From NCBI RefSeq assembly GCF_000384075.1, contig NZ_KB913025.1:1999551-2063550 (forward strand): DNA of 64,000 bases. Direction: 5' to 3'. The notes under the pieces were generated by a model. It had not been told where the DNA came from. It searched no databases and saw only the letters and a program-made list of their open reading frames with translations. Source of the DNA: Methylovulum miyakonense HT12 (lineage in GTDB: Bacteria > Pseudomonadota > Gammaproteobacteria > Methylococcales > Methylomonadaceae). Below are positions 12,229 to 39,161 of the stretch, one piece after another (the first letter of the stretch is position 1; each line of letters starts with the position of its first letter). The position numbers and the translations under genes are program-made.

Positions 12229-12334
12229 TGCAAATCTCCAATCATTGGATTGCTGCTGTCGTTAGTGGGCATTATTCGGAATGGTTTTGGTGAACTATTC
12301 AGGTCATGCCCTTAAAAGCCTTAGGTAATGTGAA

Positions 12335-12847: not shown

Positions 12848-12871
12848 ATTTCTCGCCTTCCAATAAACGGG

Positions 12872-14367: not shown

Positions 14368-14386
14368 AGTGCATATTATTGAAATA

Positions 14387-22424: not shown

Positions 22425-25400
22425 ACGGTTGCCTCGTTTGGGTTGGCTAGCTCTGCTTTGTCCTGGCCAAATAACCGGAAGAGTATCGGCAGTAAAAATA
22501 AGGTGAGGAATGTTGAGGACACCAGCCCGCCGATGACGACTATCGCCAAGGGGCGTTGGATTTCCGACCCGGGGCCGGTGGCGAACAGCAAGGGGATCAA
22601 ACCGAAGGCGGCGATGCTGGCGGTCATCAGCACCGGCCGCAAACGGCGGGAGGAACCGACCAGCACGACTTTGGCAATGTCCATGCCCGTGGCGAGCAAT
22701 TGGTTGAAATAGCTGACCATCACCACGCCATTGAGCACGGCGATCCCCAATAGGGCGATGAAGCCGACCGAGGCGGGGACGGACAAATATTCCCCCGACA
22801 CCCACAAGGCGAACACGCCGCCAACCATCGCCAGCGGAATGTTGGACAACACCAAGGTGGCCTGGCGCACCGAGCCAAACGTGGAAAACAGCAGCAAAAA
22901 GATCAGGCCTAGCGATACGGGGACTACCACGGACAAGGTGGCGGCGGCGCGTTGCTGGTTTTCAAACTGGCCGCCAAATTCTAAGGTGTAGCCTATCGGC
23001 AACGCCACCTGCCCGGCGACGGCTTTTTTGGCCTCTTCGACAAAGCCCACCAAATCCCGGCCTTGGACATTGCTGCGCACCACGGTAAAGCGTTGCCCGT
23101 GTTCGCGGCCTATCGCCACCACGCCTTCGACTTTTTTCAGTTGCGCAATCGCCGTGACCGGGACATGCCCGCCATTGGGCAAGGTGATTTGCAAATTGTC
23201 AAAATTGGACGTGTTGCTGCTGCCCCGTAAAATCAACGGGGTACGCTTGATGCCTTCCTGGATAATGCCCAGGTTCAGGCCTTCGATTTGGGCGCGCAAC
23301 AAGGTCTCGATGCTGTCGCTGTCCAGCCCCAAACGTCCGGCGGCGGATTTGTTGATCGTCAGTTGCAGGAACTGCATCCCGGCGTTTTGTTTGACGAAGA
23401 CATCACTGGAACCGTTGATGTGCCTGAGGGTTTCGGCGATTTCGATGCCTTTTTCGTTGAGTACCGCCAAATCGGGGCCGAACAATTTCACGGCGACATC
23501 GCCGCGTGTCCCGGTGAGCATCTCCGAAACACGCATTTCTATCGGCTGGGTGAAACCAAAAGCGATGCCGGGGGTTTGCATCATGACCTTGCGGATGTCT
23601 TCGATCAGATGCTCTTTATCAGGGGTATGCCATTGCTCTTTGGGTTTCAGCACCAAAAAGGTGTCGGTTTCGTTTAGCCCCATCGGGTCTAGGCCCAGTT
23701 CATCAGAACCGACCCGCGAAACCACTGTGGCAATTTCGGGGACATTTTTCAGCAAGTTCTTTTGTACCTGGCCATCCAGCATCACCGATTGCGCCAAGGT
23801 GATGGACGGCAGTTTTTCCAGTTGCACGATGATGTCGCCTTCATCCATGGTCGGCATAAAGGTGCTGCCGATTTGCATGAACACGACCACCGTTGCCGCC
23901 ATCAGCACGCCCGCGCCAACAAAAACTTTTTTGCTGTTGTCCAGGCACCAAACCAATGTGGGCTTATAAAGCGCCTGCAAATGCCTCGGTAGCCACGGTT
24001 CCTCATGGGACACTTCTTTCAAGAGATAGGAGGCGATCACCGGGATCACGGTCAGCGACAAGATTAAGGAGCCGCTCAAGGCGAACACGATGGTCAGGGC
24101 GACAGGCGTAAACAGCTTGCCTTCCAAGCCTTGCAGGGTCAACAAGGGCAAGAACACGATGATGATGATCAAAATGCCTGACGTGACCGACGCGGCGACT
24201 TCGCGGGTGGCGCGGTAAATGACATGCAGGCGTGGCAAACGTTGTGCGGTTTGGGTGTGCGCCAGATGGGTGATGAGGTTTTCCGTGACCACCACGGCGG
24301 CATCGACCAACATGCCGATGGCAATCGCAAGCCCCCCCAAGCTCATCAGGTTGGCGGACATGCCCATGGAGTTCATCAGGATGAAGGTGAACAGCGCCGC
24401 CAACGGCAAGGCCAAGGCGACGACCAAGGCCGCGCGTAAATTGCCTAAAAACAGCAGCAACAGCACCACGACCAACGCGATGGCTTCCAGTAAGGCATGC
24501 AATACGGTGTCCACGGCCTTATCGACCAGATTGCCACGGTTGTAAAACACTTTGGCTTCAACGCCTTTAGGGAAGGCCTTGCTGATTTGCGCGAGTTTTT
24601 CTTCAATGCCGACAATGGTTTGCCGCGCATTGGCGCCGCGCAAGCTGAGCACCAAGCCCGTCACAGATTCGCCGTCACCGTTTTTGCTGACCGCGCCATA
24701 ACGGGTTAACGCGCCAATTTTGATCTCGGCAATGTCGCCAACCGTCACCGGAATCCCGTTTCTGTTGTCAACGACCAAGCTGCGCACATCGTCCAGCGTT
24801 TTCAAGCGGCCTTCGGCGCGGACGATCAGGGCTTCTTCACCGTCACTGAGCCGGCCTGCACCATCGTTGCGGTTATTGTTTTTCAGGGTTTGGACCAGTT
24901 TGTCCATATTGATGCCACGCGCCGACAAACGGGTGTTGTCGGGGATGACTTCAAAACTCCTGACCATGCCGCCTAGCGAGTTGACATCGGCGACCCCGGG
25001 TACGGTGCGCAGGGCAGGGCGGATCACCCAATCCAGCAAATTACGCCGTTCCATCAGGCTTAAACCGCCGCCTTCAATGCTGAACATAAACATTTCACCC
25101 AACGGCGTGGTCATGGGCGCAATGCCGCCCTGGACGTCGGCGGGCAAGGAGCCCCACAAGGTGTTCAGGCGTTCGGCGATTTGCTGGCGCGCCCAGTAAA
25201 TGTCGGTGCCCTCGGTGAAATCGACGGTGATGTCGGTCAACGCGTATTTGGCGACCGAGCGCAACATGGTTTGGTGCGGGATGCCCAGCAACTCAACCTC
25301 AATCGGCGCGGTGATACGCGCTTCGATTTCTTCGGGGGTCATGCCGGGGGCTTTGACGATGATTTTCACCTGGGTAGGTGACACTTCGGGGAAAGCGTCA

Positions 25401-25504
25401 ATCGGGATTTGCTGGAAGGCGTAATAACCGCCGCCCGTCAGCATCAGCACGACGATCATCATCAGTAGCCGCTGGCTTAAGGCAAAACTGATCAAATGTC
25501 CCAT
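22421..25504 (-). CDS. CusA/CzcA-family heavy-metal RND efflux pump
   Basis: The ATG at 25504 (MGHLISFALSQRLL) overlaps the stop of the adaptor gene as TAATG and gives 1027 residues, full length for HME-RND. The alternative 1036-residue ORF starts nine codons upstream inside the adaptor gene. Typical features are a first helix, FPEVSPTQVKI, PGMTPEEIEARIT, ALLEAIALVVVLLLLFLGNL, the transmembrane helix-4 region GGLAIAIGMLVDAAVVVTEN with the proton-relay acidic residues, and MDEGDIIVQLEKLPS. It pumps metal ions out of the periplasm or cytoplasm with the adaptor and outer membrane channel encoded upstream. The metal cannot be assigned. Confidence 0.9.
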   Translation of the reverse strand: MGHLISFALSQRLLMMIVVLMLTGGGYYAFQQIPIDAFPEVSPTQVKIIVKAPGMTPEEIEARITAPIEVELLGIPHQTMLRSVAKYALTDITVDFTEGTDIYWARQQIAERLNTLWGSLPADVQGGIAPMTTPLGEMFMFSIEGGGLSLMERRNLLDWVIRPALRTVPGVADVNSLGGMVRSFEVIPDNTRLSARGINMDKLVQTLKNNNRNDGAGRLSDGEEALIVRAEGRLKTLDDVRSLVVDNRNGIPVTVGDIAEIKIGALTRYGAVSKNGDGESVTGLVLSLRGANARQTIVGIEEKLAQISKAFPKGVEAKVFYNRGNLVDKAVDTVLHALLEAIALVVVLLLLFLGNLRAALVVALALPLAALFTFILMNSMGMSANLMSLGGLAIAIGMLVDAAVVVTENLITHLAHTQTAQRLPRLHVIYRATREVAASVTSGILIIIIVFLPLLTLQGLEGKLFTPVALTIVFALSGSLILSLTVIPVIASYLLKEVSHEEPWLPRHLQALYKPTLVWCLDNSKKVFVGAGVLMAATVVVFMQIGSTFMPTMDEGDIIVQLEKLPSITLAQSVMLDGQVQKNLLKNVPEIATVVSRVGSDELGLDPMGLNETDTFLVLKPKEQWHTPDKEHLIEDIRKVMMQTPGIAFGFTQPIEMRVSEMLTGTRGDVAVKLFGPDLAVLNEKGIEIAETLRHINGSSDVFVKQNAGMQFLQLTINKSAAGRLGLDSDSIETLLRAQIEGLNLGIIQEGIKRTPLILRGSSNTSNFDNLQITLPNGGHVPVTAIAQLKKVEGVVAIGREHGQRFTVVRSNVQGRDLVGFVEEAKKAVAGQVALPIGYTLEFGGQFENQQRAAATLSVVVPVSLGLIFLLLFSTFGSVRQATLVLSNIPLAMVGGVFALWVSGEYLSVPASVGFIALLGIAVLNGVVMVSYFNQLLATGMDIAKVVLVGSSRRLRPVLMTASIAAFGLIPLLFATGPGSEIQRPLAIVVIGGLVSSTFLTLFLLPILFRLFGQDKAELANPNEATV

Positions 25505-26736
25505 TATTCGCCACTCCCCAAGCCCAACCAATTGGCTTTGAGCGCGACCGCGCCTTTGACGGCGATGGTTTCTTCGCCCGTGAGCCCGCCGCTGATGGTG
25601 GATTCGTCATTCTGTTTGCCGATGACGGTGACGGGCCTGGCTTCAAACCCATCGTTGGTTTGGACAAACACAAACGCCTTGCCTTCTTGTTGGGCAATCG
25701 CCGTGTTCGGCACAGTAAAGGCTTGGGTGCTATGGGGTTGGATAATCTGCGTGTTGATGCGCTGGCCAGGACGCACATCCGCTTGCCCGCCTTTAATCAC
25801 CGCCCGCGCCAGGATAGTTTGGTTTTCAGGGTTGACCGCTTGGCCTAGCAGGGTGATTTTTGCGGTTACCGGCAAGGCTTGGGTGGTTTTGCGCTGTTCC
25901 AGTTCCTGGGTTTCGGTGACGGGTTTTTCCAATAAGACCTTGTCGCCGATTTTGATTTGCCCGATACGCTCTTGCGGGATGTTGATCTCCAGCCAAAGTT
26001 CTTCCAGATTGGCGATACGGTACAGGGGCGCGAAACTGTCAATACGCGCCCCGGCGACCGCCATCCGTTCCAATACCACGCCCGTGATGGGTGAGTGGAT
26101 ATACAGCAGACTGGATAAACGGTGGGTTTTTGTCAGGCGGTCTATCTCGCTTCGGGTCATGCCGGCAATTTCCAGTAATTGGCGGTGTTCATGGGCGACA
26201 AAGTTTGCTGAATTGTACTGGCTACGGGTTTCTTGCCAGCGGCGTTCAGGGGTCACGCCTTCATTAAACAATTTTTTGTCGCGCTGGAAACTGATTTCAC
26301 TTAAGGCCAAATCGCTGGCGGCTTTGAGATAAAGCTGTTGCAGGGATAGCAAGTCCGAACTGTTGAGTTCGGCCAGCACGTCGCCTTGCTTGACGTTATC
26401 GCCGATTGCCGCCGTCAGTTTGGTGATCAGGCCCGCTTGCGAGGCGCTGACGATATATTCATGCGCCGGAGGCACCACAACCTTGGCAGGCGCATAGAGC
26501 ACCGGAATTTGTGAGGCAGGGGACGGCTTGCCTAGGGCCACGCCCAAGTTATTGCTATGTTCCGTAGAAATTTTGATGGCATTGTCCAGCGCGTGGGCTG
26601 GAGAAAGGCATGGCGGCAACACCATCAAAAGTGCGGCCACCAACAAATTATCTAAAACATTACGGAACGGCTTGCAAAGTTGTTCCGGCTTTGTGCATAG
26701 GTGTGTGGGAATTGTGTGGTTTAAGGGCGTAATCAT
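25504..26736 (-). CDS. RND efflux periplasmic adaptor (CzcB/CusB type)
   Basis: This 410-residue membrane-fusion protein has a hydrophobic N-terminal segment (NVLDNLLVAALLMVLPP) that probably exports it, two half-lipoyl segments (VVPPAHEYIVSASQAG and IHSPITGVVLERMAV), a helical hairpin between them, then the beta-barrel and membrane-proximal domain. It links the inner-membrane pump to the outer-membrane channel. The start overlaps the channel gene by four bases and the end overlaps the pump gene by one base, so all three are translationally coupled. Confidence 0.88.
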   Translation of the reverse strand: MITPLNHTIPTHLCTKPEQLCKPFRNVLDNLLVAALLMVLPPCLSPAHALDNAIKISTEHSNNLGVALGKPSPASQIPVLYAPAKVVVPPAHEYIVSASQAGLITKLTAAIGDNVKQGDVLAELNSSDLLSLQQLYLKAASDLALSEISFQRDKKLFNEGVTPERRWQETRSQYNSANFVAHEHRQLLEIAGMTRSEIDRLTKTHRLSSLLYIHSPITGVVLERMAVAGARIDSFAPLYRIANLEELWLEINIPQERIGQIKIGDKVLLEKPVTETQELEQRKTTQALPVTAKITLLGQAVNPENQTILARAVIKGGQADVRPGQRINTQIIQPHSTQAFTVPNTAIAQQEGKAFVFVQTNDGFEARPVTVIGKQNDESTISGGLTGEETIAVKGAVALKANWLGLGSGE

Positions 26737-28043
26737 GGCATGGCTCCTACGGCTTGGTTATAAAATGCCTGGTCACGTTCCAACATCACGGCGCGTTCTT
26801 TGGCGTTCAAAATGGCTTGTTGGGTGCGTGATTGGATTTTCAGCAAATCAATCAAATCAATTTCCCCTACCGAAAATGCCGTTTGGGTCATGGTCAAATG
26901 CTGTTCGGCGACTTGTTTCAATTCATTGGCGATGCCCAATGCCACCCGGTTAACCTCCAGATTATGCTCGGCCTCGTGATGGAGCTGCTCCAGATTGCGG
27001 TACAACAATTCCCGCTCGGCAATCAGGCGGTTCAGTTCCACATTCAGCGCGGCGATATGCGGCTGGATATGCGCGCTGCCGCCAAACGGCACGTTGACGC
27101 CGATGTTGAAACTCTCGGTTTTGTTACTGCGCGGGTCGTTGGTTAAGCTGTCGCTATTGACGCCAATCGCCACGTTGCTTTGCCCCGACCCGATCAGTTT
27201 CACCGCGTTTAGCTCCGCTTGCTTACGGTCGATTTGGCTGTTGATGGCTTGCAAGGCGGGATGGTTTTGTTGGATTTCCCGCAACCCCACCAGTTTCTCG
27301 GCAAAGGCGCCAGGCATTTTTGTGGTTTGTGTCAAGCTGGAATAGCGTTTGCGCGAGTGCATCAGTTCCGCTTCCGCCATCGTCAGCAGCGTACGTTTTT
27401 GCAACAGTTCGGTTTGTGCCAGCAATTCATCGGCACGGGGCAAATCGCCCAGCTCCACACGGCGTTTGATCTTTGCCAATAGCTGCTCAAAAACCGCAAT
27501 TTCCGCTTGCGCCTGTTCATAACGGATTTTTTGCAGGGATATGTCCCACAAAGCGGCACGGACTAATCCGGCGATACGCAAACGGGTTGCCTGCATCTGC
27601 ATTTCCGCGCTCATTTCGGCTTTCGTACCCGTTTTCCGTTCCGCCTCCCGTTGCCCCACATTCCACAACGGCACTTGCACTTGCGCGTCAATATAATGCA
27701 GGGTGCCGCTGGTTGCTTCCTGAAAGCGCAAGCTCGCTTGTGGCGCGCCTGCAACCCAGCTTTTGCCGCGTTGCGTAATCGCCGTGGCTTCTTCTTCCAA
27801 GGCGTTTAGCCAATGGGTGTCGGGGTACTTTTCCATCGTCAACTCAACCAGCTTGCCTAAGCTTAAATGGGGGTCCACGATGATCGGGTCCTGATGGGGG
27901 ACGAGGGTGTGTTCTTGGGGGGCGGCAACTTCGTCGGCGGCCATGCAGGCAAAGGCGGCAAGCCCCAGTGGTAGCGTCCCCAAAAGGGCGGCTAGGCAAA
28001 CAGGCCTAAACCCGTAGCGGGGGTGGGGGGTCATATCAGTCAT
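26733..28043 (-). CDS. TolC-family outer membrane channel (CzcC type)
   Basis: This 436-residue protein has a signal peptide (cleavage near AFACMA) and two repeats of the outer-membrane efflux protein fold: long helices rich in Gln, Ala and Glu (YEQAQAEIAVFEQLLAKIK, AEQHLTMTQTAFSVGEIDL) with membrane strands between. A repeat boundary near residue 240 is typical. It is the first gene of the minus-strand operon channel-adaptor-pump-DUF3240. No sensor-regulator pair is visible nearby, so the regulation is unknown. Confidence 0.87.
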   Translation of the reverse strand: MTDMTPHPRYGFRPVCLAALLGTLPLGLAAFACMAADEVAAPQEHTLVPHQDPIIVDPHLSLGKLVELTMEKYPDTHWLNALEEEATAITQRGKSWVAGAPQASLRFQEATSGTLHYIDAQVQVPLWNVGQREAERKTGTKAEMSAEMQMQATRLRIAGLVRAALWDISLQKIRYEQAQAEIAVFEQLLAKIKRRVELGDLPRADELLAQTELLQKRTLLTMAEAELMHSRKRYSSLTQTTKMPGAFAEKLVGLREIQQNHPALQAINSQIDRKQAELNAVKLIGSGQSNVAIGVNSDSLTNDPRSNKTESFNIGVNVPFGGSAHIQPHIAALNVELNRLIAERELLYRNLEQLHHEAEHNLEVNRVALGIANELKQVAEQHLTMTQTAFSVGEIDLIDLLKIQSRTQQAILNAKERAVMLERDQAFYNQAVGAMP

Positions 28044-28169: not shown

Positions 28170-28331
28170 CCTAGTGCCCAGTCATTGATTTTTTGTCGGG
28201 TCAGTCAATCCGTAGGGGCGGGCGGTTGTCCGCCTTGTTTATGGCCTATGCCAACATCCGTAGCGATCAGGCGGGCAACCGCCCGCCCCTACGAAAATCA
28301 TACTGGCAATTCAACATTGACTGAGTACTAG
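28170..28331 (-). repeat. Palindromic interspersed element, copy 2 (inverted)
   Basis: This is the most complete copy of the family. CCTAGTGCCCAGTCA at the left mirrors TTGACTGAGTACTAG at the right, and between them are two GGGGCGGGCGGTTG / CAACCGCCCGCCCC palindromes. It is in the opposite orientation to the copies at 21911 and 29004. It occupies the region between the RND operon start and the small secreted protein gene, so it may affect transcript ends or promoters. Confidence 0.88.
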
Positions 28332-28774: not shown

Positions 28775-29297
28775 GTAAAAGGGGGCCTTTGTGAAGTTAA
28801 ACAGGAGTGGCTGGCATTATAGCATTGAGTGGCTGTTTAGGGGGTAGAACCGTATCGCTGAAAATCCGCCGGATACCCTGTGTCCGGGCATTTAATCCTA
28901 ATACGGCATGTACAGGAAATATCTTTAGCAAGGGTCATTGCCGATACATGGGCTTGGGTAATGGGCCAAATGCCCGGATTGGCTGGGCTGGACGTAGTGT
29001 AAACCTAGTGCCCAGTCAATGTTGAATTGCCAGTATGATTTTCGTAGGGGCGGGCGGTTGCCCGCCTGATCGCTGCGGATGTTGGCACAGGCCATAAAAA
29101 AGGCGGATAACCGGTCCGCCCCTACGGATTTAGATGGGCCCGCCACCTGGGAGTGTTCGCCAAGCGTCCAGATTGCGGGGCAGGCTTATAAAAATTTACC
29201 GGGTTTTAGTGGCTGGCGGAGAGGCACGCGTCCCCATTTTCGAAACGGCGGAATTCAATTACAATCCTTGCTTTTCCAATTGGATTTTGGTGCCGCC
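28775..29297. other. Gap upstream of the P450 gene, with a palindromic element
   Basis: Apart from the repeat at 29004-29143, nothing gene-like is visible in these 523 bases. The ORF that extends the P450 gene back to 29079 begins inside the repeat and has no conserved sequence. The promoter of the P450 operon must lie in 29144-29297 or in the repeat itself. No clear -35/-10 pair stood out. Confidence 0.45.
29004..29143 (+). repeat. Palindromic interspersed element, copy 3 (right end lost)
   Basis: CCTAGTGCCCAGTCAATG, the GCCAG spacer, and GGGGCGGGCGGTTGCCCGCC are close to the reverse complement of the copy at 28170. The right terminal repeat TTGACTGGGCACTAG is missing: after GATGGGCCCGCC the sequence diverges. 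The copy is therefore truncated, about 150 bases before the P450 start. Confidence 0.85.
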
Positions 29298-30638
29298 ATG
29301 ATGAAACCCATTCCCACCGGGCCTTGCAGTAGGTTCCCTTTCGAAAATGAATTGTCCTGGAGCAAAAATGCAAGGGAATTCCTGTTGCGGACGGCGCAGA
29401 AATACGGTGACATTTGCAAATTCCGTTTGCGGGGCATTGACCTTTATTTCGTCAGTGACCCGGAATTGGTGCGCGAGGTGTTGGTGACGCAGGACAAGTT
29501 ATTTGTCAAAGGGCTGGGCTTCGAAAGGATCCGCCCTTGGTTGGGTAATGGCTTGGTGACCAGCGAAGGGGAGGTGCATAAGCGCCAACGCCGGCTGCTG
29601 CAATCGGCGTTCCACCGCCAGCGTATCGAAGCCTACGCACAAACCATGCAGGAAGAGGCGGAAAAAGCCTGCGCCAGCCTTCAAGACGGGCAAGCCATCG
29701 ACTTGCTGCCTTTCATTGAGGATGTCGCCTTTAGGATTGCCACGGCCTGTATGTTCGACGAAAACTTGGATGCCGAAAGGCCGGCGGTTATTCAGGCGAT
29801 GCGGCTGTCCTCACGTTATATGGACGCCGTAAAATCCTACTCGGTTGCGGCCTTGTGGCGACGTTGGACCGGGCAGGCCGAGAAGGAAAAATGGGAGGCT
29901 ATCCGTTTGTTGCACACGATGGTCGATGGCATCATCGCCTCCAGGCGGCAAGATACCGAAGACCGGGGTGACTTGCTGTCCATGTTGGTGTTGGCGCTGG
30001 ATGAGGAAGGCGATGGCAAAGGCTTGTCCGACCAAGAAGTCCGCGACCAAGTGATCACACTGTTGGTGGCGGGGTTCGACACGATAGCGTCCTCACTGAC
30101 GACCTGCATTTACCTGCTCGCACGCCATCCTGACGCGGAACAGTGTGTGGTGGATGAAATGGCGGGCCTGTTAGGCGGACGGCCTGCGGGTTTTGCCGAG
30201 TCACTCGCCCTGGGGCGGGCAACAGCGGCCTTTAGCGAGGCGATACGCCTGTATCCGGCAGGCTGGTTATTACCGCGCCGCGCCACGGCGGACGTCCAAA
30301 TCGGCGATTATTTGATCCCTGAAAACGCCACCGTTGTGGTTTCGCCGTATGTCAACCATCATGACCCGCGCTATTTCCCTGATCCCGAGCAATTTAAGCT
30401 GGAGCGTTGGCCCGAACAGCGCGGTGGCCTGCCTAAAATGGCCTATTACCCTTTCGGTGCCGGCTCGCGGGTCTGCATTGGCCAACAGTTCGCTTGGATG
30501 GAAGCCAATATTGTCTTGGCTTCGTTCCTGCAACGCTGGCGGTTTGAACCCGCTTTTGACGGGCCTTTGCCGTATAAATCGACCATGAGTTTGCGTCCGG
30601 CCAATAGTTGCCCAGGTTTTATCAGGAAACGCACATGA
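29298..30638 (+). CDS. Cytochrome P450
   Basis: The ATG pair at 29298/29301 gives a 446-residue soluble P450; sequence upstream of it is repeat-derived. The I-helix oxygen-activation motif AGFDT is at residues 258-262, the K-helix E-x-x-R at 314-317, and the heme loop FGAGSRVCIGQ places the thiolate at Cys393. The overall length and the WLLPRRATAD and FKLERW segments resemble CYP102/CYP110/CYP4-like fatty-acid or terpene hydroxylases. It needs external redox partners; none are encoded next to it. The stop codon overlaps the GH3-family start (ATGATG), so it is the first gene of an oxidative cluster. Confidence 0.9.
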   Translation: MMKPIPTGPCSRFPFENELSWSKNAREFLLRTAQKYGDICKFRLRGIDLYFVSDPELVREVLVTQDKLFVKGLGFERIRPWLGNGLVTSEGEVHKRQRRLLQSAFHRQRIEAYAQTMQEEAEKACASLQDGQAIDLLPFIEDVAFRIATACMFDENLDAERPAVIQAMRLSSRYMDAVKSYSVAALWRRWTGQAEKEKWEAIRLLHTMVDGIIASRRQDTEDRGDLLSMLVLALDEEGDGKGLSDQEVRDQVITLLVAGFDTIASSLTTCIYLLARHPDAEQCVVDEMAGLLGGRPAGFAESLALGRATAAFSEAIRLYPAGWLLPRRATADVQIGDYLIPENATVVVSPYVNHHDPRYFPDPEQFKLERWPEQRGGLPKMAYYPFGAGSRVCIGQQFAWMEANIVLASFLQRWRFEPAFDGPLPYKSTMSLRPANSCPGFIRKRT

Positions 30639-32284
30639 TGCAAACACTCGCAGCTTGGTATGGGGCGTGGTTGTGGCGTAATTTCGAACGGGCGTCCCGT
30701 AACCCCGAAGCCGTGCAGCGGCGGTTGCTGGCTAACATCCTCCATGCCAATGCCGATACGGCGTTTGGCCGCAGCCACGGCTTTTCCTCAATAAAATCCT
30801 TGGCCGAGTATCAGCAATCCGTCCCTATCCGTACGTTTAAAGGCTTATCGGCTTGGGTGGATCGGATTGAAGCCGGGGAGCCAGCCGTCTTGACGCGTGA
30901 CCCGGTGGTTTTTTTCAACCAAAGCAGCGGCACCTCCGGCAAGCAGAAACTGATTCCGGTCACCCGCCAATGGCTACAAGACACCGGACGCTTGCGGATG
31001 ACCTGGGGGGCTTTAGCCACCCGGGCCCATCCGGGGCTGATGTCGGGCAAGACCGTTTCGGTGGTGTATGCGGCTTCCGGCGGCAACACGTCCGGCGGGA
31101 TAGAATACGGCTCATTATCGGGGCGGGTGTTCCTGCAAAGCCCCAAACCCTTGCGCCAACGCTACGCCCTGCCTTATGCCATCGCCCGCATCGCCGACCC
31201 TGAGTCCAAACAATACGCCGCCATGCGCATGGCGGTTTCCCAAGATGTGAGCTTCCTGTTTTCCACCAACCCGGCGACCGTCCTCGCCATGCTGGAAACG
31301 GCGGAACGCAGGCAAGACGAGCTGTTGCGCGACATCCATGAGGGGACGTTAAGCGAAGCTTTGCTATTGCCGCCCGGAGTGCGTGAAGATTTGCTCGGCC
31401 TCTGTCGGCCTGACGCGCAAGCCGCCCGCCGTTTGGCGGCTTTGGCGGCACAAAATTCAGGACGTTTGCGCCCGATGGATTACTGGCCTAATTGCGCGGT
31501 GTTCGGGTGCTGGTTGGGCTCCACGGTAGGCGTGGCGGCACGGCGGATCCCTGATTGGTTCAGCCCGTCACTGGCTTTGCGGGACGTCGGCCTGGCGGCG
31601 AGCGAGGGCGTGTTCACCCTGCCTATCCAAGATAACGTGCCTTACGGGCCGCTGACCGTGGCCAGCAATGTCTATGAGTTCATCCCGGTGGCGGATGCCG
31701 ACCAGGACGACCCTCCCGTGTTGGCGGCGTGGGAATTGGAAGTCGGGGCGGAATATGTGCTGGTCATCACCACGCTGGCGGGTCTGTACCGTTACAACAT
31801 CAATGACGTGGTTAGGGTCACCGGAAAATTCAACGCCACGCCCATGCTGGAGTTTGTCCGTAAGGGCAGCGACAACGCCAACCTCGCCGGGGAAAAAATG
31901 GACGTGGCGCATCTGCTGGAAGCGGTGGACAAGGCGCAAAAAGCGACAGGGCTGCACATTGCCCATTTCCGTGTCCAAGCCGACCCGCAACAGATGCGTT
32001 ACCGTTTTTATCTGGAGCTGTCAGGGGGCGTTCCGGTGGATTCCTTGGACAAATTAGCGGACGAACTGGAACAGTCATTACAAGCCGCCAACGCCTACTA
32101 CGCCAAATGGATAAACGAAAAACAACTGTTGCCATCGACAGTGTGCCTGATGCAAGCGGGTTGGTTTGGCCGGTATGTCAACGACGCGATAACCCAAGGG
32201 GCACGGCATGGCCAGTTCAAACCCGCCTTGCTGACTTTGCAGCCCGAACCCGCGCATGAAATTGTCGCCAGGACAGCAGAATGA
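30635..32284 (+). CDS. GH3 auxin-responsive-family acyl-adenylating enzyme
   Basis: The ATG at 30635 overlaps the P450 stop and gives 549 residues. The ATP-binding loop is at residues 97-103 (SSGTSGK), followed by the GH3-type YRYNINDVVRVTGKFN and the C-terminal DNANLAGEKMDVAHL motif. GH3 enzymes belong to the adenylate-forming superfamily and, in plants, join jasmonate, auxin or benzoates to amino acids; bacterial homologues are much less studied. By position it would activate a carboxylate made by the P450 or the aldehyde dehydrogenase and join it to an amine or thiol. Substrate unknown. It overlaps the next gene by four bases. Confidence 0.85.
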   Translation: MMQTLAAWYGAWLWRNFERASRNPEAVQRRLLANILHANADTAFGRSHGFSSIKSLAEYQQSVPIRTFKGLSAWVDRIEAGEPAVLTRDPVVFFNQSSGTSGKQKLIPVTRQWLQDTGRLRMTWGALATRAHPGLMSGKTVSVVYAASGGNTSGGIEYGSLSGRVFLQSPKPLRQRYALPYAIARIADPESKQYAAMRMAVSQDVSFLFSTNPATVLAMLETAERRQDELLRDIHEGTLSEALLLPPGVREDLLGLCRPDAQAARRLAALAAQNSGRLRPMDYWPNCAVFGCWLGSTVGVAARRIPDWFSPSLALRDVGLAASEGVFTLPIQDNVPYGPLTVASNVYEFIPVADADQDDPPVLAAWELEVGAEYVLVITTLAGLYRYNINDVVRVTGKFNATPMLEFVRKGSDNANLAGEKMDVAHLLEAVDKAQKATGLHIAHFRVQADPQQMRYRFYLELSGGVPVDSLDKLADELEQSLQAANAYYAKWINEKQLLPSTVCLMQAGWFGRYVNDAITQGARHGQFKPALLTLQPEPAHEIVARTAE

Positions 32285-35088
32285 AAATCGCCCGCAACAA
32301 ATGGCTAGTGCTGGCGGTGGTGGAGCTAGGTGTCTTGCTGTGTTCCATCGACGCGACCATTGTGGTCCTGGCCTTGCCGACCATGGCCGCGGATTTGGGC
32401 AAAAGCATCGCCGACATCCAGTGGGTGAGCGTCGCTTACGGCATCACTTGCGCGTCCACCTTGGCATTGGCCGGAAAATGCGCGGATTCGATAGGCCGTA
32501 AAAACGCCTACCTGATCGGTTTCGCCATTTTTACCGCGGCTTCCTTGGCGAGCGGCCTGGTCACCAATTTTCCGCTGCTGGTCACTTTGCGTGTGTTCAC
32601 GGCGGTGGGGACGGCGTTCCTGCTGTCCAGCGGCAACGCCATCATCACCTCGGTGTTCCCAAAAGAGCAGCACGGGCTGGCCTTGGGTTTGGGCGCGACG
32701 GTTTTTTCTTTAGGCGTCGCCGCAGGCCTGTCCTTAGGCGCACTGATCCTGCATATCGCAACATGGCAATGGATTTTTCTGATTAACTTCCCGGTCGGTT
32801 TGGTTGCCCTGGCGGCTGGGGCCGTGGTTTTCGACCCGGCCGCGTTGGGCCGGCCGCAACAACGGCGACGGCAAGCGGTGGATTGGCAAGGCGCCATTTT
32901 CTTGTTGGGCGGGCTGACCAGCCTGTTACTGGGGGTCGAATCCCTAGTGGCCGTTGAATGGGGCTTGTCCTTGAAATTGGCGGCCTTGTCGGTGTTGTTG
33001 TTTGCCCTCTTTGTCCGTGCCGAACGCCAGGCGGCTGACCCGATCTTGCCGCTTTGGCTGTTCAAAGTCCCGGAGATTTTCCGTGGCTCGGTCATGCGCA
33101 TCATCATGCGGATGGCAGGGGCGGGCGTGGCTTTTACTTTGCCGTTTTATTTGCAACGCAATTTAGGCTTGTCGCCAGCGGCGGCGGGCATGTTGCTGCT
33201 GGCGAATGTCACCGTGTTCGCCATCGCCGGGCCTTTGTCGGGGCATTGGGCCGACCGTTGGCAAGCACGTAAGCTCATTTCCATAGGCTTGGCCTGCCTG
33301 TGTTTGGGCGTGTCGCTACACCTGCTGTTGCCGGACGGCGTGGCGAAACCTGATGCCCGTGTCTTGGGTTATGTCGTGCTGGCCCAGGCGGTGATGGGCC
33401 TGGGTGCCGCCATGTTCGGTTCACCCAACGCCAAGGCCACCATGCACTCGGTGGCACGCGAACATCACGCGGTGGTGTCCGGGCTGTTGTGGACGACCAC
33501 TTTCATTGGCCAATCATTGGGGACTGCGGCGGCGGCTGTGGTGTTGGGGGTTGCTGGCAGCGACGGCAACGCCCCCTTGCAAAATGCATGGCTGGTGTTT
33601 GTCCTGATGGCGGCGGCGGTCGCGGTGGCTTTGGGCATGTCCTTACGCCGTAGCCGTGCGCAAAAATCCTACCGCATTAGCCTAGGGCAAACCGGGGGCG
33701 GGGGGGGCGCCATATTATCGCCCGAGGAAATCGCCGGGCTTTGCCGGAACGCGCAAAGCCTGTCCGCTTCAGGCAAAACCCGGCCAACCCGTTTCCGGAA
33801 GGCCGCATTACGGGATTTGTTGCGCATCATCGAGGAAAATGAAGGCCTGATGTTCGACGCTTTGCGCCAGGACTTGGGCAAGCCTGCCATGGAAGCTTAC
33901 ATGTCGGAAATTTTTTGCGTCAAGGAGGAGCTGCGCCTGTCCCTGAAAAAACTGGACGCTTGGGCACGCGATGAAGCGGTGGCTACGCCTTGGTGGTTAT
34001 GGCCCGCGCGTTCCTGGATCAGGAAAGTGCCTTTTGGCACGGTGCTGGTTTTAGTGCCATGGAATTACCCTTTGCAATTGGCATTGATGCCCTTGGTGGC
34101 GGCGTTGGCGGCGGGCAACACCGTGGTCATCAAACCTTCCGAACTGGCCCCCGCATCCGCCGTGCTGTTACAGGCGATCGCCCGGCTGTTTGAGCCCGGA
34201 CTGGTGTCTGTGGTGAACGGTGGCGCCGACACCGCCCGTAGCTTGCTGGAACAGCCGTTTGATTTCTTTTTCTTCACGGGCGGCGCGGAGATTGGCAGGC
34301 AAGTCGCGCTGAAGGCGGCGGCGAAAGGCATCCCTTGTGTGCTTGAGTTAGGCGGCAAAAACCCGTGTATCGTCGATGAGAGCGCACCCTTGGCCTTGGC
34401 GGCGCGGCGCATCGTCTGGGGCAAATTTTTCAATGCCGGGCAGACTTGCCTGGCTCCCGACCATGTGTATGTGCACCGCGATGTCTATGAGGCGCTGTTG
34501 CTGGAGATGGCGAAAGTGGTTGGCGATTTTTACGGTGGACAGCCCTGGTTGAGCCCGGATTTGGCGCAGATAGTCAACGTCCGGCATTTTGCGCGCCTGT
34601 TGGGCTATTTAGAAGAAGGGCGCGTGGCGCACGGCGGCCGTTATGACACCGATGCGCGCCGTATCGGGCCGACCTTGTTGGTGGATATTGTCCCTAATGC
34701 GGCGGTGATGCGGGAAGAGATTTTTGGCCCCATCCTGCCGGTGTTGCCTTATGATGACCTGTCCGTGCTGTTGGACACCTTGCAATCGCAGCCCGTGCCC
34801 TTGGCGATGTATTTGCATACCCGGCGGCGGGATACCGAGGCCCTCGTGTTGCAAAGGACGCGTTCAGGCAGTGTTTGTGTCAACGACCACCTGATGCAAG
34901 CCGGTGTGCCGGCGTTGCCGTTCGGTGGCATGGCGCACAGCGGGATCGGGCGTTACCATGGCCGCCATGGCTTTGACACTTTCACCCATGCCCGCGCCGT
35001 GCTACGCCAGTCGACGCGCTGGGACAACCACTTGCGCTACCCACCAGGAGACGCCAAATTAGTTTGGCTTAGGAGATTGCTCGGATGA
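32281..35088 (+). CDS. MFS transporter-aldehyde dehydrogenase fusion protein
   Basis: This 935-residue ORF joins two full domains. Residues 1 to about 465 are an EmrB/QacA-type 14-helix MFS exporter (DATIVVLALPTMAADLG, WVSVAYG, GKCADSIGRKNAYLIG). Residues about 480-935 are a class 3-type aldehyde dehydrogenase: VPWNYPLQ with Asn595, catalytic base Glu689 in LELGGKNP, nucleophile Cys723 in NAGQTCLAPD, and EEIFGPILPV. The junction (about residue 474) is coded by a G-rich stretch with an eight-G run at 33700-33707, giving a short glycine linker. No good start codon lies just before the dehydrogenase part. The start overlaps the GH3 gene and the stop overlaps the MpaB gene by four bases each. Confidence 0.85.
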   Translation: MKIARNKWLVLAVVELGVLLCSIDATIVVLALPTMAADLGKSIADIQWVSVAYGITCASTLALAGKCADSIGRKNAYLIGFAIFTAASLASGLVTNFPLLVTLRVFTAVGTAFLLSSGNAIITSVFPKEQHGLALGLGATVFSLGVAAGLSLGALILHIATWQWIFLINFPVGLVALAAGAVVFDPAALGRPQQRRRQAVDWQGAIFLLGGLTSLLLGVESLVAVEWGLSLKLAALSVLLFALFVRAERQAADPILPLWLFKVPEIFRGSVMRIIMRMAGAGVAFTLPFYLQRNLGLSPAAAGMLLLANVTVFAIAGPLSGHWADRWQARKLISIGLACLCLGVSLHLLLPDGVAKPDARVLGYVVLAQAVMGLGAAMFGSPNAKATMHSVAREHHAVVSGLLWTTTFIGQSLGTAAAAVVLGVAGSDGNAPLQNAWLVFVLMAAAVAVALGMSLRRSRAQKSYRISLGQTGGGGGAILSPEEIAGLCRNAQSLSASGKTRPTRFRKAALRDLLRIIEENEGLMFDALRQDLGKPAMEAYMSEIFCVKEELRLSLKKLDAWARDEAVATPWWLWPARSWIRKVPFGTVLVLVPWNYPLQLALMPLVAALAAGNTVVIKPSELAPASAVLLQAIARLFEPGLVSVVNGGADTARSLLEQPFDFFFFTGGAEIGRQVALKAAAKGIPCVLELGGKNPCIVDESAPLALAARRIVWGKFFNAGQTCLAPDHVYVHRDVYEALLLEMAKVVGDFYGGQPWLSPDLAQIVNVRHFARLLGYLEEGRVAHGGRYDTDARRIGPTLLVDIVPNAAVMREEIFGPILPVLPYDDLSVLLDTLQSQPVPLAMYLHTRRRDTEALVLQRTRSGSVCVNDHLMQAGVPALPFGGMAHSGIGRYHGRHGFDTFTHARAVLRQSTRWDNHLRYPPGDAKLVWLRRLLG
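33694..33707 (+). repeat. Homopolymeric G tract at the MFS/ALDH junction
   Basis: Five Gs, one C and eight Gs in a row lie exactly where the transporter and dehydrogenase domains meet. A one-base change in the tract would end the transporter early and take the dehydrogenase out of frame, so the tract could be a slippage switch or a site of sequencing error. Confidence 0.8.
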
Positions 35089-36224
35089 CAACTTTCCAAC
35101 AACCCGCCACCGAGCTTAGCGAAGCCGTGCGCCTGCAACGTTTCCGGCGGATGGGTGACCCGCTCGCAGACGCCGCCGTGGCCGACTTGGCGCATCTGCC
35201 TAAAAGCGGTATTGAACGTTTGTTGCACCAAATCCTGGAAGAAGGCATAGACGCTGTGCCCGATGCGCCAGAAAGCTGGAAAGCCTTGTTCCGGCAGGCA
35301 GACCATGTGCCTTATTGGGTCAACTGGAAAGTCATGAACCAGGCATCGCAGGTGTTTTTGAAAGCGGGGGTCTTAGGCGTTTTTTCGCTGTGTTGTTATG
35401 CGACGCCGTTGTTTTATTCCTTGTCGCTAGGCAACAAGCCCTTGGCCTCTTCGGGCGAACTGAAAGGGCGCGCCCCCAGGCGGGGCCGGGAAACCGCCCG
35501 CTTTGTCATTGAAACCTGCCTACCCAACAATCTCCAACGCGGCGCCGATGGCTTTAAGGTGACGATGCGGGTGCGCCTGATGCACGCGCATGTCCGCGCG
35601 GGGCTGCTGCGTTCAGGGCATTGGGATGCGGAACAGCTGGGGTTGCCCATCAGCCAAGTTTACATGGCGGCAATGAACGCCTTGCTGTCGATGAAGTGGA
35701 TTGAAGGGCTGCGGAAGCTGGGTTTCCATATGGATCGTGAAGAAGAGGAGGGCATCATCCAATTATGGCGTTACTCGGCTTATCTGATAGGCGTGGATTC
35801 TGAATTGCAATTCGCCACTTATGCGGAAGCGGCGCATTTTCTGGAATTGGTTTTGGCGCAGGAACCGGAACCGGATGAGGATTCGCGGCAATTGGTCTCC
35901 GCCTTATTGGCGGCAGTGCCGGATGTTTTGGGGTTGGAAGGCCGGGCGGGCGGTTTGATGCATTCGCTTTGCAGGGGGCTGTCCTATGCCATGATGGGGG
36001 AGGTATTGGGCAAGCAGCTGGACCTTCCGAAAACAAAGTGGCGTTATTTAGGCCATCTTGCCCGTGCGTTTATCCCCATCTGGCGCTTGCTGGACCGTAT
36101 TTTCCCTAGCGTCCACCGTACATCCCAATATTATGGCACACGTTTTTGGCTCAATCTGGCGGAGTTCCCCCCACAAGGCGGCCTGGAGATGTTCACCAGC
36201 CGCCATGGCCGTGATGGGGCATAA
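35085..36224 (+). CDS. MpaB/DUF2236-family oxygenase-like protein (latex-clearing-protein superfamily)
   Basis: This 379-residue all-helical protein matches the MpaB/DUF2236 family, which includes the rubber oxygenase Lcp and the fungal MpaB that cleaves a farnesyl chain. Visible family features are the GDPLADAAVADL start, TARFVIETCLPNN, the basic RVRLMHAHVRAGLL helix with the likely heme-ligand histidine, and HMDREEEEGIIQLWRYSAYLIG. Members bind b-type heme and oxidatively split isoprenoid double bonds to aldehydes. That reaction would feed the fused aldehyde dehydrogenase encoded by the gene it overlaps. The substrate here is not known. Confidence 0.8.
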   Translation: MTTFQQPATELSEAVRLQRFRRMGDPLADAAVADLAHLPKSGIERLLHQILEEGIDAVPDAPESWKALFRQADHVPYWVNWKVMNQASQVFLKAGVLGVFSLCCYATPLFYSLSLGNKPLASSGELKGRAPRRGRETARFVIETCLPNNLQRGADGFKVTMRVRLMHAHVRAGLLRSGHWDAEQLGLPISQVYMAAMNALLSMKWIEGLRKLGFHMDREEEEGIIQLWRYSAYLIGVDSELQFATYAEAAHFLELVLAQEPEPDEDSRQLVSALLAAVPDVLGLEGRAGGLMHSLCRGLSYAMMGEVLGKQLDLPKTKWRYLGHLARAFIPIWRLLDRIFPSVHRTSQYYGTRFWLNLAEFPPQGGLEMFTSRHGRDGA

Positions 36225-36284
36225 ACTTTCTTCGGCTTGCCAAGTTAATGGCTACGCCCACACCAACCTACAGAAAACTTAAAC

Positions 36285-36578
36285 ATGGACATTTCCCTAG
36301 ACACCTCAGGCAACGGCGTAGTGGTTTCGCTGGTTGGACGGCTGGATTCGATTACCTCGCCCGCCGCCCAAAGCGAATTGGAAACGCTGCTGGAAAACCA
36401 TAAAGGCCCGGTGACACTTGACTGCGCCGGCCTTGAATACCTTAGCAGCGCGGGCCTTAGGGTGTTGCTGTTGCTGGCTAAAAACAAGCGCAATGTGCTG
36501 ACAGTAGCGGGCCTGCGTGACAACGTGCGTGACGTGATCAATATCGCGGGCTTTTCCTTAATTTTCAAGGTCAAGTAA
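36285..36578 (+). CDS. STAS-domain anti-sigma-factor antagonist
   Basis: This 97-residue protein is a single STAS domain of the SpoIIAA/RsbV type, with the phosphorylation-site serines in YLSSAGLRVLL and the usual start (GNGVVVSLVGRLDSITS). Such proteins bind a switch kinase/anti-sigma factor and are released or captured according to Ser phosphorylation. No partner kinase or phosphatase gene is in the window. It lies 60 bases after the MpaB-type gene and could belong to the same transcript, but the oxidative genes upstream do not demand it. Confidence 0.88.
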   Translation: MDISLDTSGNGVVVSLVGRLDSITSPAAQSELETLLENHKGPVTLDCAGLEYLSSAGLRVLLLLAKNKRNVLTVAGLRDNVRDVINIAGFSLIFKVK

Positions 36579-36660
36579 ATCAGCGTAAAAACTTCAATAA
36601 CGCCACGCCGGGCGGCTGGCTGTAGGTTAATGCCTTATTCAGTTTAATGCCACTATGATG

Positions 36661-36685
36661 CCCTAAACTTTTTTATCTTTAGGGG
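36661..36685 (+). promoter_or_regulatory. Hairpin that covers the ribosome-binding site of the small lipoprotein
   Basis: CCCTAAA at 36661-36667 pairs perfectly with TTTAGGG at 36678-36684, around a T-rich 10-base loop. The right arm contains the Shine-Dalgarno AGGGG that serves the ATG at 36692. In RNA this stem would hide the ribosome-binding site, so translation may depend on temperature or a ligand. It could also be a weak terminator of the preceding operon. Confidence 0.45.
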
Positions 36686-36691
36686 TGTGTC

Positions 36692-36946
36692 ATGGTGGCA
36701 TTAATCAGAATCACTATAATCGCTGCGTTGTTAGGCATGTTAAGTGCCTGCGCCGTATATCCCAACCCGTACGGCGCTTATCCCGGCTCTGCGCCGACGT
36801 ATCGCCGGGTTGTGGTGGGCAATGGCTATTACCGTGCACCATCCCCGGTGATCATTGAGCGGAAGGTTTACGGCTACCCGCGTTATTATCAACGCCCTTA
36901 TGGTGGTGGTTATGGCTATGGCCATCACCATGACGATGATGACTAA
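36692..36946 (+). CDS. Small Tyr/Gly/His-rich lipoprotein
   Basis: This 84-residue protein has a lipoprotein signal (ALLGMLSAC, cleavage before Cys), then a mature chain rich in Tyr, Pro, Gly and Arg and a C-terminal HHHDDDD tail. The last codons overlap the end of mtnC on the other strand. Such short repetitive lipoproteins are common in methanotrophs and other Gram-negatives without known function. The acidic/histidine tail could bind metal. Confidence 0.65.
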
Positions 36947-37638
36947 GGGGTGCCGCCAATTTGCGCAATAGAAATCTCGGCAAAGCTAGCCACTTGCCGA
37001 TGTTCCGCTTGGGCGTCAAGCCCGCCTTCGCGGACTAGCCAAACCGTTGCCAGCCCCGCCGCTTTGGCGGCATCCAGCTCTTCTTTAATATCCGATAGAA
37101 ACAGCACTTGCCTAGGCAAAAAAGGGATGCGGGCGATGATGTTTTGGTAGGATTCCGTCTCGCGTTTGCCGCCGATCAGGGTATCAAAATAGCCGGAAAA
37201 TAACGGGGTCAAATCGCCATAATCCGTGTGCGCGAACAGCAGTTTTTGCGCCTGGACCGAGCCGGACGAATACACGTATAAATCAATGCCCTGCTGCTTC
37301 CAGTTTTGTAATTGCCCGGCGGCATCGGCGTAGATATGCCCCTGGAAATCGCCTTGCCGGTAACCGGCTTCCCAAACCAAGCCTTGTAAGGCTTTCAGGG
37401 GCGTGATTTTTTTATCTTCATCCAGCCATTGCAGCAACTGGGCAATCGCCGTTTCCACGCCAAACGCCACGTCCGCCGCCGCGCAAGTGTCCGCCAGCAA
37501 GGCCTTGACGGTGGCCTCTTCGGCATGTTGGCGGACAAATCCTGCCAAATGCGCCCGCGCATAAGGGAACAGCACATCTTTGACGAAGGCCAATGATGAG
37601 GTTGTGCCTTCAATATCGGTGATGATGGCTTTAATCAT
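36943..37638 (-). CDS. mtnC: Acireductone synthase (enolase-phosphatase E1)
   Basis: This 231-residue HAD-family enzyme opens with [21 protein letters not shown], in which the DxE replaces the usual DxD nucleophile motif, as in MtnC. Later motifs are [15 protein letters not shown] (HAD Ser) and [16 protein letters not shown] (acidic Mg site). It converts 2,3-diketo-5-methylthiopentyl-1-phosphate to acireductone in methionine salvage. It is the last of three genes, mtnB-mtnD-mtnC, each overlapping the next by four bases. mtnA and mtnK/mtnP are not visible. Confidence 0.93.
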
Positions 37639-38195
37639 GATAATCCGGCGAGGGTTTGGGCTAGGGTAGGGAAAGATGCGCCGATGCCGCTGCCCGTGAA
37701 ATTAGCGACCCAGCCGTCGGGCGTGGTGAACAGGCGGATGGCTTTTAAACAAGGGTTTTCGCCCAGGTCAAACCAGTGCTTGGTGTGGGCAGGGACGCTG
37801 ATCAGATCGCCCCGTTCACACAACACCACATAGACCTTGTCCCCGACATGCAGATAAAACAGACCGCAGCCTTCGACAAAAAAGCGCACTTCAAAATCAT
37901 CGTGCGTGTGTTCCGCCAGGAATTTTTGCCGTAAGGCGGCTTTGTCGGGATGGTCGGCGTTAAGGCTGATGACATCGACCGATTGGAAACCATATTGCTG
38001 TTGCAAGCGGGCGATAGGTTCGGCATAAGCCGCTAAAATCGTGGCCTGGTCGGCATCGGCGGCGAAAGTGCAGTTTGCCGTCCAGCGTTCAAGCACGACA
38101 TTGATGGCTTTAAGTTGGTTTTCTATGGCGGCAAAATCGCTGTAACGCTCGCCTTGTTGGGCTTGGTTGTCGTCATAAACAGTCAATAAACTCAT
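37635..38195 (-). CDS. mtnD: Acireductone dioxygenase
   Basis: This 186-residue cupin has the metal-binding motif H-x-H-x4-E ([15 protein letters not shown]) and a third histidine further on (HTKHWFDLG). With iron it makes the methionine precursor 4-methylthio-2-oxobutanoate and formate; with nickel it makes a different, CO-releasing product, so the bound metal decides the outcome. It overlaps both neighbours by four bases. Confidence 0.93.
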
Positions 38196-38809
38196 TTTTG
38201 GGCTCCGTGTAAGTGCAGTTCACAAGCAAATAAAAAATCCAGGGCTTCCAAGTAGCGTAGCGTTTCTTCAACCGATGTCCCCCAGGTGTACAGCCCATGC
38301 CCGGCGATGATGTAAGCATGACAATCGGGATGGGTGTCCAAATAGGCATCGGCCTGCGTGGCCAAGCGCGGAATATCCTGGTCATTGGCGAAAATCGGCA
38401 CGACGATGCGGCTTTCGTGGGTGTTGATGCCGCGGAATGCCTTCAGCAATTCGTAGTTCTCCAGCACGATTTCCGTGCCAAACAGTTTGGAAACCAGCAC
38501 GGTATTTAAAGGATGCGGGTGCAGGACGGCGTTGATGTCCGGGAAACGCCGGTAAATGCCCGTGTGCAAGCCCGTTTCCGCCGAAGGCTTTTTGCCGTCC
38601 AATGAATTGGCGTCGGCGTCAATCAGCATAATGTCATCGGGGTGCAAATGGCCTTTATGTTTGCCGGACACGGTGATGGCTATCGTGCCATCCGGCAAGC
38701 GCACCGAAAAATTGCCACTGGTGGCGGGGACCCAGCCTTTGCTGTCGATAAAACGTCCGGCGGCAATCAGTTGTTGTGCGGCGGTGTGGAAAGGTGTCTG
38801 CTCAGTCAT
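38192..38809 (-). CDS. mtnB: Methylthioribulose-1-phosphate dehydratase
   Basis: This class II aldolase-like zinc enzyme is about 205 residues long from the ATG at 38809 (MTEQTPFHTAAQQLIAAGRF). An upstream in-frame TTG at 38836 would overlap the MazF-like gene, but the ATG looks better. The GWVPATSGNFSVRL start, the metal histidines in VLHPHPLNTVL and the HGLYTWG stretch identify it. It converts methylthioribulose-1-phosphate to the diketo compound that MtnC uses. It overlaps mtnD by four bases. Confidence 0.9.
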   Translation of the reverse strand: MTEQTPFHTAAQQLIAAGRFIDSKGWVPATSGNFSVRLPDGTIAITVSGKHKGHLHPDDIMLIDADANSLDGKKPSAETGLHTGIYRRFPDINAVLHPHPLNTVLVSKLFGTEIVLENYELLKAFRGINTHESRIVVPIFANDQDIPRLATQADAYLDTHPDCHAYIIAGHGLYTWGTSVEETLRYLEALDFLFACELHLHGAQK

Positions 38810-38825
38810 TCCTATATCTATTTTT

Positions 38826-39161
38826 TTAAGAAACAATTAGTCTGGCCCGTTCGGTCACTTTTTCAATGATCTCTTGGGGCGCTTTTTCAATCAGGCGTAG
38901 GTTGCGTGCCTGAAAATCGAGGGATTTTAACTGATGTACCAGCACCGAACCTCTAATTGATAGCGATTCTGGCAACACCACTTCCAACTGGATGCCACGG
39001 ATAGTGCTGGTAATGGGGGCGACAACCGCTAAGTGCGTATGTCCATTGAACAGCTGTTGGGAAATGACAAAAGCGGGTCGCCGTTTAATAATTTCAATGC
39101 CGCTGCTGGGATTAAAATCCAGCCAAACGATGTCGCCTCGCTCTGGAATATACCCGCTCAA
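38826..39161 (-). CDS. mazF: MazF/PemK-family toxin
   Basis: I start at the TTG at 39161, which overlaps the antitoxin stop as TTGA and has AGGGAG eight bases upstream. This gives about 111 residues beginning SGYIPERGDIVWLDFNPSSG. An ORF back to 39200 also starts at TTG and would overlap mazE by 43 bases. Signature segments are RRPAFVISQQLFN, VVAPITSTIRG and VLVHQLKSLDFQARN. MazF proteins cut mRNA, or some tRNA or rRNA, at short sequence motifs and are kept inactive by the paired antitoxin. It lies upstream of the mtn genes in the same direction, with only 16 bases between. Confidence 0.87.
   Translation of the reverse strand: MSGYIPERGDIVWLDFNPSSGIEIIKRRPAFVISQQLFNGHTHLAVVAPITSTIRGIQLEVVLPESLSIRGSVLVHQLKSLDFQARNLRLIEKAPQEIIEKVTERARLIVS

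Follow-up and report, generated by a model that had tools for sequence, protein, structure and literature searches.

Described systems and the four-gene operon

MpaB-type enzymes are described as splitting C=C bonds, with an aldehyde as intermediate or product, and in the fungal mycophenolic acid pathway MpaB is reported to cleave a terminal isoprenyl double bond to an acid and acetone through an aldehyde (PMC12724181). That pathway joins cleavage by MpaB/MpaB' to activation of the acid by an acyl-CoA ligase (PMC12724181, PMC12591190). A set of four genes at 29298-36224 of a 64,000-nucleotide stretch of Methylovulum miyakonense HT12 (contig NZ_KB913025.1; the whole stretch is called the window here) resembles it in bringing together an MpaB-family protein and a putative acid-activating enzyme. 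The mycophenolic acid pathway works with CoA activation and in peroxisomes, whereas the four genes encode, beside the MpaB-type protein, a cytochrome P450, a GH3 ligase and a transporter fused to a dehydrogenase, in a bacterium. The second likeness is to the OlsH/OlsI ornithine-lipid pathway of planctomycetes, where a bacterial GH3-like enzyme is described as joining an acid to an amine in an amide bond (PMC12493201). OlsH was the only characterised bacterial GH3 enzyme that turned up in the literature searched. The operon differs from that pathway in that its GH3 protein misses the cut-off of the OlsH profile, no OlsI is present and oxidative enzymes are added.

We tentatively read the four genes as an oxidative acyl-amide pathway that would oxidise its substrate, cleave an alkene, make an acid, amidate it and export the product, and we give this reading somewhat less than an even chance. 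The P450 would oxidise a lipophilic substrate and tailor its skeleton, and its place in the order can be read in more than one way. The MpaB-type haem oxygenase would split a C=C bond and yield an aldehyde, which the aldehyde dehydrogenase (ALDH) domain of the fusion would turn into an acid. The GH3 protein would adenylate the acid and couple it with an amine that is probably an amino acid, and the MFS domain, whose C-terminus would lie next to the ALDH in the cytoplasm, would export the product or the acid intermediate. Here we infer the order of the steps, the amide product and the direction of export. An earlier sequence-only reading of this DNA had proposed a similar order, and the enzyme families do fit oxidation or cleavage, conversion of an aldehyde to an acid, activation and export; the part that changes is the GH3 step, as this protein is better read as a predicted amide-forming ligase than as a mere acid activator. 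The same reading had guessed at an isoprenoid substrate, which found no support: the relatives of the ALDH and of the GH3 protein point equally to fatty or aryl acids, and a fatty or aryl alkene is at least as likely a substrate as an isoprenoid. A search of the genome with the terpene-synthase profile PF19086 gave no match, and 14 control genomes were equally silent.

The four genes lie on the forward strand, and their frames were found to be intact, open and complete from the list of open reading frames (ORFs) and by direct reading. Each gene starts on or within the end of the preceding one with an overlap of 1-4 bases, as had been claimed from the sequence alone. The stop codon of the P450 (TGA, 30636-30638) meets the GH3 ATG at 30635 or 30638, and the GH3/MFS-ALDH and MFS-ALDH/MpaB junctions are ATGA overlaps at 32281 and 35085, respectively. 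Because consecutive genes overlap, they probably form one translationally coupled operon read from a single mRNA. A sigma-70 scan of 28780-37000 returned three promoter-like sites against a shuffle mean of 4.4, and none of them was upstream of the P450. The GC content of the four genes (56.5-60.1%) was higher than that of the window (51.8%), which belongs to a genome of 4,687,143 bases on one contig. Their codon-use distance was 0.25-0.28, and 20 of the 23 other compared genes of the window fell at 0.16-0.39; the operon is therefore either old here or came from a similar donor. Recent transfer, as judged by odd composition, was thus rejected, since GC is raised but codon use fits the host range.

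The P450, the MpaB-type protein and the transporter-dehydrogenase fusion

Pfam profile scores were judged against curated cut-offs and named functions against NCBIfam equivalog cut-offs. The P450 scored 276.9 bits against PF00067, far above cut-off, and carries all three marks that were tested, namely the haem Cys motif, ExxR and the I-helix AGxDT. Cys393 of this protein, as well as C723 and E689 of the ALDH, had been named correctly in the sequence-only reading. Its closest named profiles were those of albaflavenone oxygenase (279.1 of 700 bits) and pentalenene oxygenase (269 of 800 bits), both below cut-off, and its top-scoring solved relative was chain 3dbg (215.7 bits). Because the named terpene-oxygenase profiles score far under cut-off, the link of the P450 to terpenes appears to be a general resemblance only.

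The MpaB-type protein matched MPAB_Lcp_cat (PF09995) with 91.8 bits against a cut-off of 23. Its residues R133, T137 and H167 align with R164, T168 and H198 of Lcp (Lcp K30 numbering), which are described as the haem triad (PMC6311187), and the triad was invariant in 9 of the 9 proteins aligned. The distal haem ligand of Lcp, K167, is absent; E136 stands in its place, and all nine aligned proteins have E or R there. The AlphaFold model of the protein (mean predicted local distance difference test, pLDDT, 84.7) gave as its top Foldseek match the Lcp structure 5o1l (E 3.4e-8, template modelling score, TM, 0.65). The protein is thus like Lcp in its strong predicted fold match and its R/T/H triad, and unlike this rubber oxygenase in the missing distal lysine and in an identity of 18% in the structural match. 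The next fold match was much weaker (8s1j; E 0.029, TM 0.41/0.50), a weak predicted likeness to t-anethole oxygenase, which we take to cleave the alkene of its substrate. The MpaB-type protein thus has an Lcp-like predicted fold, and it would contain haem. Matches to it were found in 7 of 61 relatives including its own genome, the best other one being 39% identical.

In the third gene, the MFS and ALDH parts share one reading frame through a Gly5 linker, and both score far above cut-off (Aldedh 284.1 and MFS_1 177 bits). The MFS part remained under the DHA2 EmrB-type cut-off (TIGR00711; 198.8 vs 230.2 bits), and the ALDH under that of its best named profile, benzaldehyde dehydrogenase MdlD (341.2 of 550 bits). 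Class 3 structures stand near the top of the solved relatives of the ALDH, which also include fatty-aldehyde dehydrogenases. A fusion produced by a sequencing error in the G tract was considered and judged less likely: neither of the two other frames has an ATG, GTG or TTG after its last stop and ahead of the tract (codons read by eye), which leaves the ALDH without a start codon in those frames there. The eight-G tract could slip, and the ALDH may have an in-frame internal start, such as the ATG found ahead of the linker in ALGMSLRR. A search with the fusion matched 172 of 185 gammaproteobacterial genomes (at most four candidates scored per genome), and among the matches listed both halves were covered only in the host's own genome and in none of the 184 others. 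The open frames around two of the listed ALDH matches are 735 and 763 amino acids long (G132, G235); both were outside the fusion inspection. On plasmids, 3,951 records gave a match, and in none of them did a single place account for 80% of the fusion.

If the fusion is real at the protein level, it would offer a direct test of the coupling of a dehydrogenase to an exporter. DHA2-type transporters end C-terminally in the cytoplasm, which would place the ALDH by its cofactor. A bolder proposal is that, once the MpaB-type haem oxygenase had cut an alkene, the exporter-fused dehydrogenase would oxidise the resulting aldehyde right at the entrance of the exporter and that the GH3 protein would turn the acid so formed into a hormone-like amide for secretion, making this a new kind of transporter-enzyme fusion; we regard it as highly doubtful. 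DHA2 exporters are also drug-type pumps, and the same genes can be read as a catabolic or detoxifying module, in which an external terpene or aryl alkene would be cleaved, oxidised, conjugated and expelled, the fusion coupling acid formation to efflux. The MdlD score of the ALDH, the t-anethole oxygenase as the second-nearest, although weak, solved fold and the presence of GH3.12, a 4-substituted-benzoate ligase, among the solved matches of the GH3 protein are consistent with such a module. However, the four-gene operon has no ring-degrading or beta-oxidation gene, and the host is, by its gene content, perhaps a gammaproteobacterial methanotroph, from which growth on such compounds would be unexpected. 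We consider a catabolic or detoxifying role quite unlikely.

The GH3 protein, its relatives and recurrence of the gene set

The N, M and C domains of GH3 scored 231.7, 79.5 and 62.1 bits, respectively, against a Pfam cut-off of 23.6. The nucleotide-binding motifs I-III, as defined in section 6 of PMC12493201, are kept (SSGTSGKQK, AASE and GLYRYNIND) together with K528. In an alignment of 58 rows, G98, E323 and D390 were identical in all and K528 in 55. The solved structures that the protein matches include the plant auxin and jasmonate amido synthetases.

The searches for relatives covered Pseudomonadota, Myxococcota and eight individual genomes, in samples that overlap between searches. Among Myxobacteria, 46 of 188 genomes matched GH3, with the best-scoring protein 37% identical, and the myxobacterial genes are much closer than those of the host's family. 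In a tree of the 58 rows, the GH3 of the window was sister (99/98) to four myxobacterial proteins. The tree included a row labelled 'pseudo' from a Sorangium genome (L074) and did not include L193, a short fragment at the end of a contig in the genome that also holds L159. An MR/MLE-type enzyme lies directly upstream of GH3 in the sister-clade loci L160 and L161, and in L193; its nearest named profiles, muconate cycloisomerase and the N-acetyl-D-Glu racemase DgcA, were far below cut-off in the two scanned (L160, L161). Haem-oxygenase-like proteins, which activate oxygen, adjoin GH3 in L160 and L193 (Haem_oxygenas_2 over cut-off) and in L158 (DUF3050, with Haem_oxygenas_2 just under cut-off). 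A GntC-like pyridoxal phosphate enzyme stands near GH3 in L158 and L161 (about 144 of 415 bits). L159 and L160, where a P450 is convergent with GH3, are closely related and were counted once. The operon is thus like these myxobacterial loci in having a related GH3 near putative oxidative enzymes and a P450, and unlike them in that they carry MR/MLE-type and haem-oxygenase-like proteins instead of ALDH, MFS and MpaB, and their P450 is outside the operon. The kinship of the GH3 with this small clade, next to MR/MLE-type and haem-oxygenase-like proteins, is what is novel here.

In a neighbouring GH3 clade, FA_hydroxylase accompanied GH3 in 4 of 4 rows, as a fusion in L042 and L073 and as the directly adjacent gene in L043 and L164. 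The two fusions come from two gammaproteobacteria and span L042:7829-10396 (855 amino acids) and L073:7520-10102 (860 amino acids). Because the sister and neighbouring clades adjoin haem-oxygenase-like proteins or fatty-acid hydroxylases, GH3 beside a predicted oxidative enzyme is an arrangement that recurs, and its kin strengthen the pathway hypothesis on the GH3 side. Together with P450 and MpaB-type partners, these nearest clades outline a testable class of putative oxidative acyl-amide pathways.

The same hydroxylases also bring in a lipid reading, according to which the P450 and the MpaB-type protein would act on an unsaturated acyl chain by oxidation or cleavage, the ALDH would make the acid and GH3 an N-acyl amino acid for the membrane or as a signal. 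OlsH is described as forming N-acyl ornithine from fatty acids (PMC12493201), and the fatty-aldehyde dehydrogenases and class 3 enzymes among the relatives of the ALDH would suit such a chain. Against these stand the equivalog profile of OlsH, the lyso-ornithine lipid synthetase, which the GH3 protein reaches with 101.9 of 620 bits, the lack in the operon of an acyltransferase such as OlsI, and the MFS domain, whose export would better suit a soluble product. A lipid product is, in our view, unlikely.

Several findings weigh against the oxidative acyl-amide pathway. The sequence-only reading would have the gene neighbourhood shared elsewhere, and no co-occurrence was found within the samples, which weakens the word pathway; GH3 beside an oxidative enzyme was nevertheless seen repeatedly. 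At none of 58 GH3 loci did a match to MpaB, MFS or ALDH lie close by (22 loci at E 1e-4, being 21 from Pseudomonadota and one from Sorangium, and 36 myxobacterial loci at 1e-6), many relatives being on short contigs where neighbours may be missing as sequence. None of eight close MpaB loci had a P450, GH3, MFS or ALDH match at E 1e-3 (named genomes of Roseomonas, Stella and myxobacteria, contigs scanned by two peptide patterns, one locus of 4.7 kb), and none of four P450 loci had any other member of the set. Of 237 genomes from the host's family, 4 matched GH3, the three besides the host only distantly. The link of the FA_hydroxylase clade to that of the window is weak (87/61). The commonest family among the myxobacterial GH3 neighbours was glycosyltransferase 2 (9 of 37), which is not oxidative, and MR/MLE was found in 4, Haem_oxygenas_2 in 3 and FA_hydroxylase in 1; the tally took 37 of 46 co-directional neighbours, leaving out seven of up to 181 amino acids and two MotA/MotB-like proteins (L161) that were scanned separately. 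A sulfotransferase (PF13469) lies near MpaB relatives in four of the eight loci scanned (L038, L040, L041, L044; 20 proteins, with L048-L050 and a third genome of the same genus, G010, left out). Finally, the ORFs of the operon include no redox partner, regulator or scaffold-making enzyme, and the single-sequence structure model of MFS-ALDH (pLDDT 42.6) was too poor for use.

Pairs of set members did appear near one another in a few places. The 36-locus GH3 set held a P450 in two loci (L159, L160) and the 22-locus set one weak P450 fragment, in L076; this 115-residue match of 28% identity on the other strand was set aside as weak. In L038 a P450 lies between MpaB and the sulfotransferase, and the locus also has an HpnA/SdmB-like short-chain dehydrogenase/reductase below cut-offs; as this P450 is convergent with MpaB and 32% identical to ours, the pair was kept as a lead only. 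Plasmid searches returned only distant matches, all below 60% identity, and the same gene set was not found in the titles and abstract openings of the literature searched, outside which most subscription journals lie. The parts are known families, and no second instance of their combination turned up among the sampled genomes. As a hypothesis the pathway is fair, and the absence of another copy of the set weakens it.

The failure to meet the set again would also agree with a chance acquisition beside mobile repeats, in which the four genes would be transcribed together without a common pathway and kept for one member. The best relatives lie in different lineages (Alphaproteobacteria and myxobacteria for MpaB, myxobacteria for GH3 and another gammaproteobacterium for the P450), each gene having been searched in a different sample, and copies of a repeat like a miniature inverted-repeat transposable element (MITE) stand immediately upstream. 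However, the three consecutive overlaps of 1-4 bases, the intact frames and checked catalytic residues and a codon use inside the host range speak for long upkeep of all four genes, and we hold such an acquisition to be very unlikely.

Surroundings of the operon

Features of the operon, its neighbourhood and the MpaB-sulfotransferase loci are collected in Table 1.

Table 1. Coordinates of the operon, of its neighbours in the window and of MpaB-sulfotransferase loci in other genomes.
Feature	Position	Strand	Remarks
Cytochrome P450, 446 aa	29298..30638	+	Cys393 haem thiolate, ExxR at 314, AGFDT at 258
GH3-family acyl-acid amido synthetase (predicted)	30635..32284	+	548 or 549 aa (ATG 30638 or 30635)
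MFS domain, DHA2/EmrB-like, fusion residues 1-470	32281..33690	+	profiles, hydropathy
Gly5 linker, G-rich tract (G5 C G8 C), GGGGGCGGGGGGGGC	33694-33708	+	joins MFS to ALDH
Class-3-type ALDH part of fusion	33691..35088	+	C723, E689, N595; Pfam match from residue 482
MpaB/Lcp-type (DUF2236) protein, 379 aa	35085..36224	+	PF09995 match, haem triad
RND-type efflux set	22421-28043	opposite	upstream; named by eye except OEP domain of 26733-28043
mtn-type methionine-salvage set	36943-38836	opposite	downstream; named by eye
Small ORFs	between operon and mtn-type set	+	
MITE-like 109-bp element copy	29005-29113	+	just upstream of operon; neighbour, outside pathway
Inverted copy of MITE-like 109-bp element	28223-28331		
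MpaB-sulfotransferase locus L038	around 10959-15823		
MpaB-sulfotransferase locus L040	8710-10931		
MpaB-sulfotransferase locus L041	6286-8507		
MpaB-sulfotransferase locus L044	8122-11080		

The nearest long genes to the operon are those of the RND-type and mtn-type sets, both on the other strand. The 109-bp element is MITE-like as judged by its repeats: its two copies are inverted, 94% complementary and 673 nucleotides apart, and 36 places match it genome-wide, some of them partially. An ORF of 148 amino acids between the two copies had no Pfam match. Downstream, a small STAS-like ORF at 36286-36579 on the forward strand, recognised by eye, begins 61 bases past the operon and may share its transcript. 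Elsewhere in the window, the 1-deoxy-D-xylulose 5-phosphate synthase gene at 4246-6105 has 63.9% GC and odd codon use, and an AAA_13 gene at 56449-58806, with 34.1% GC, is far under its surroundings and looks foreign.

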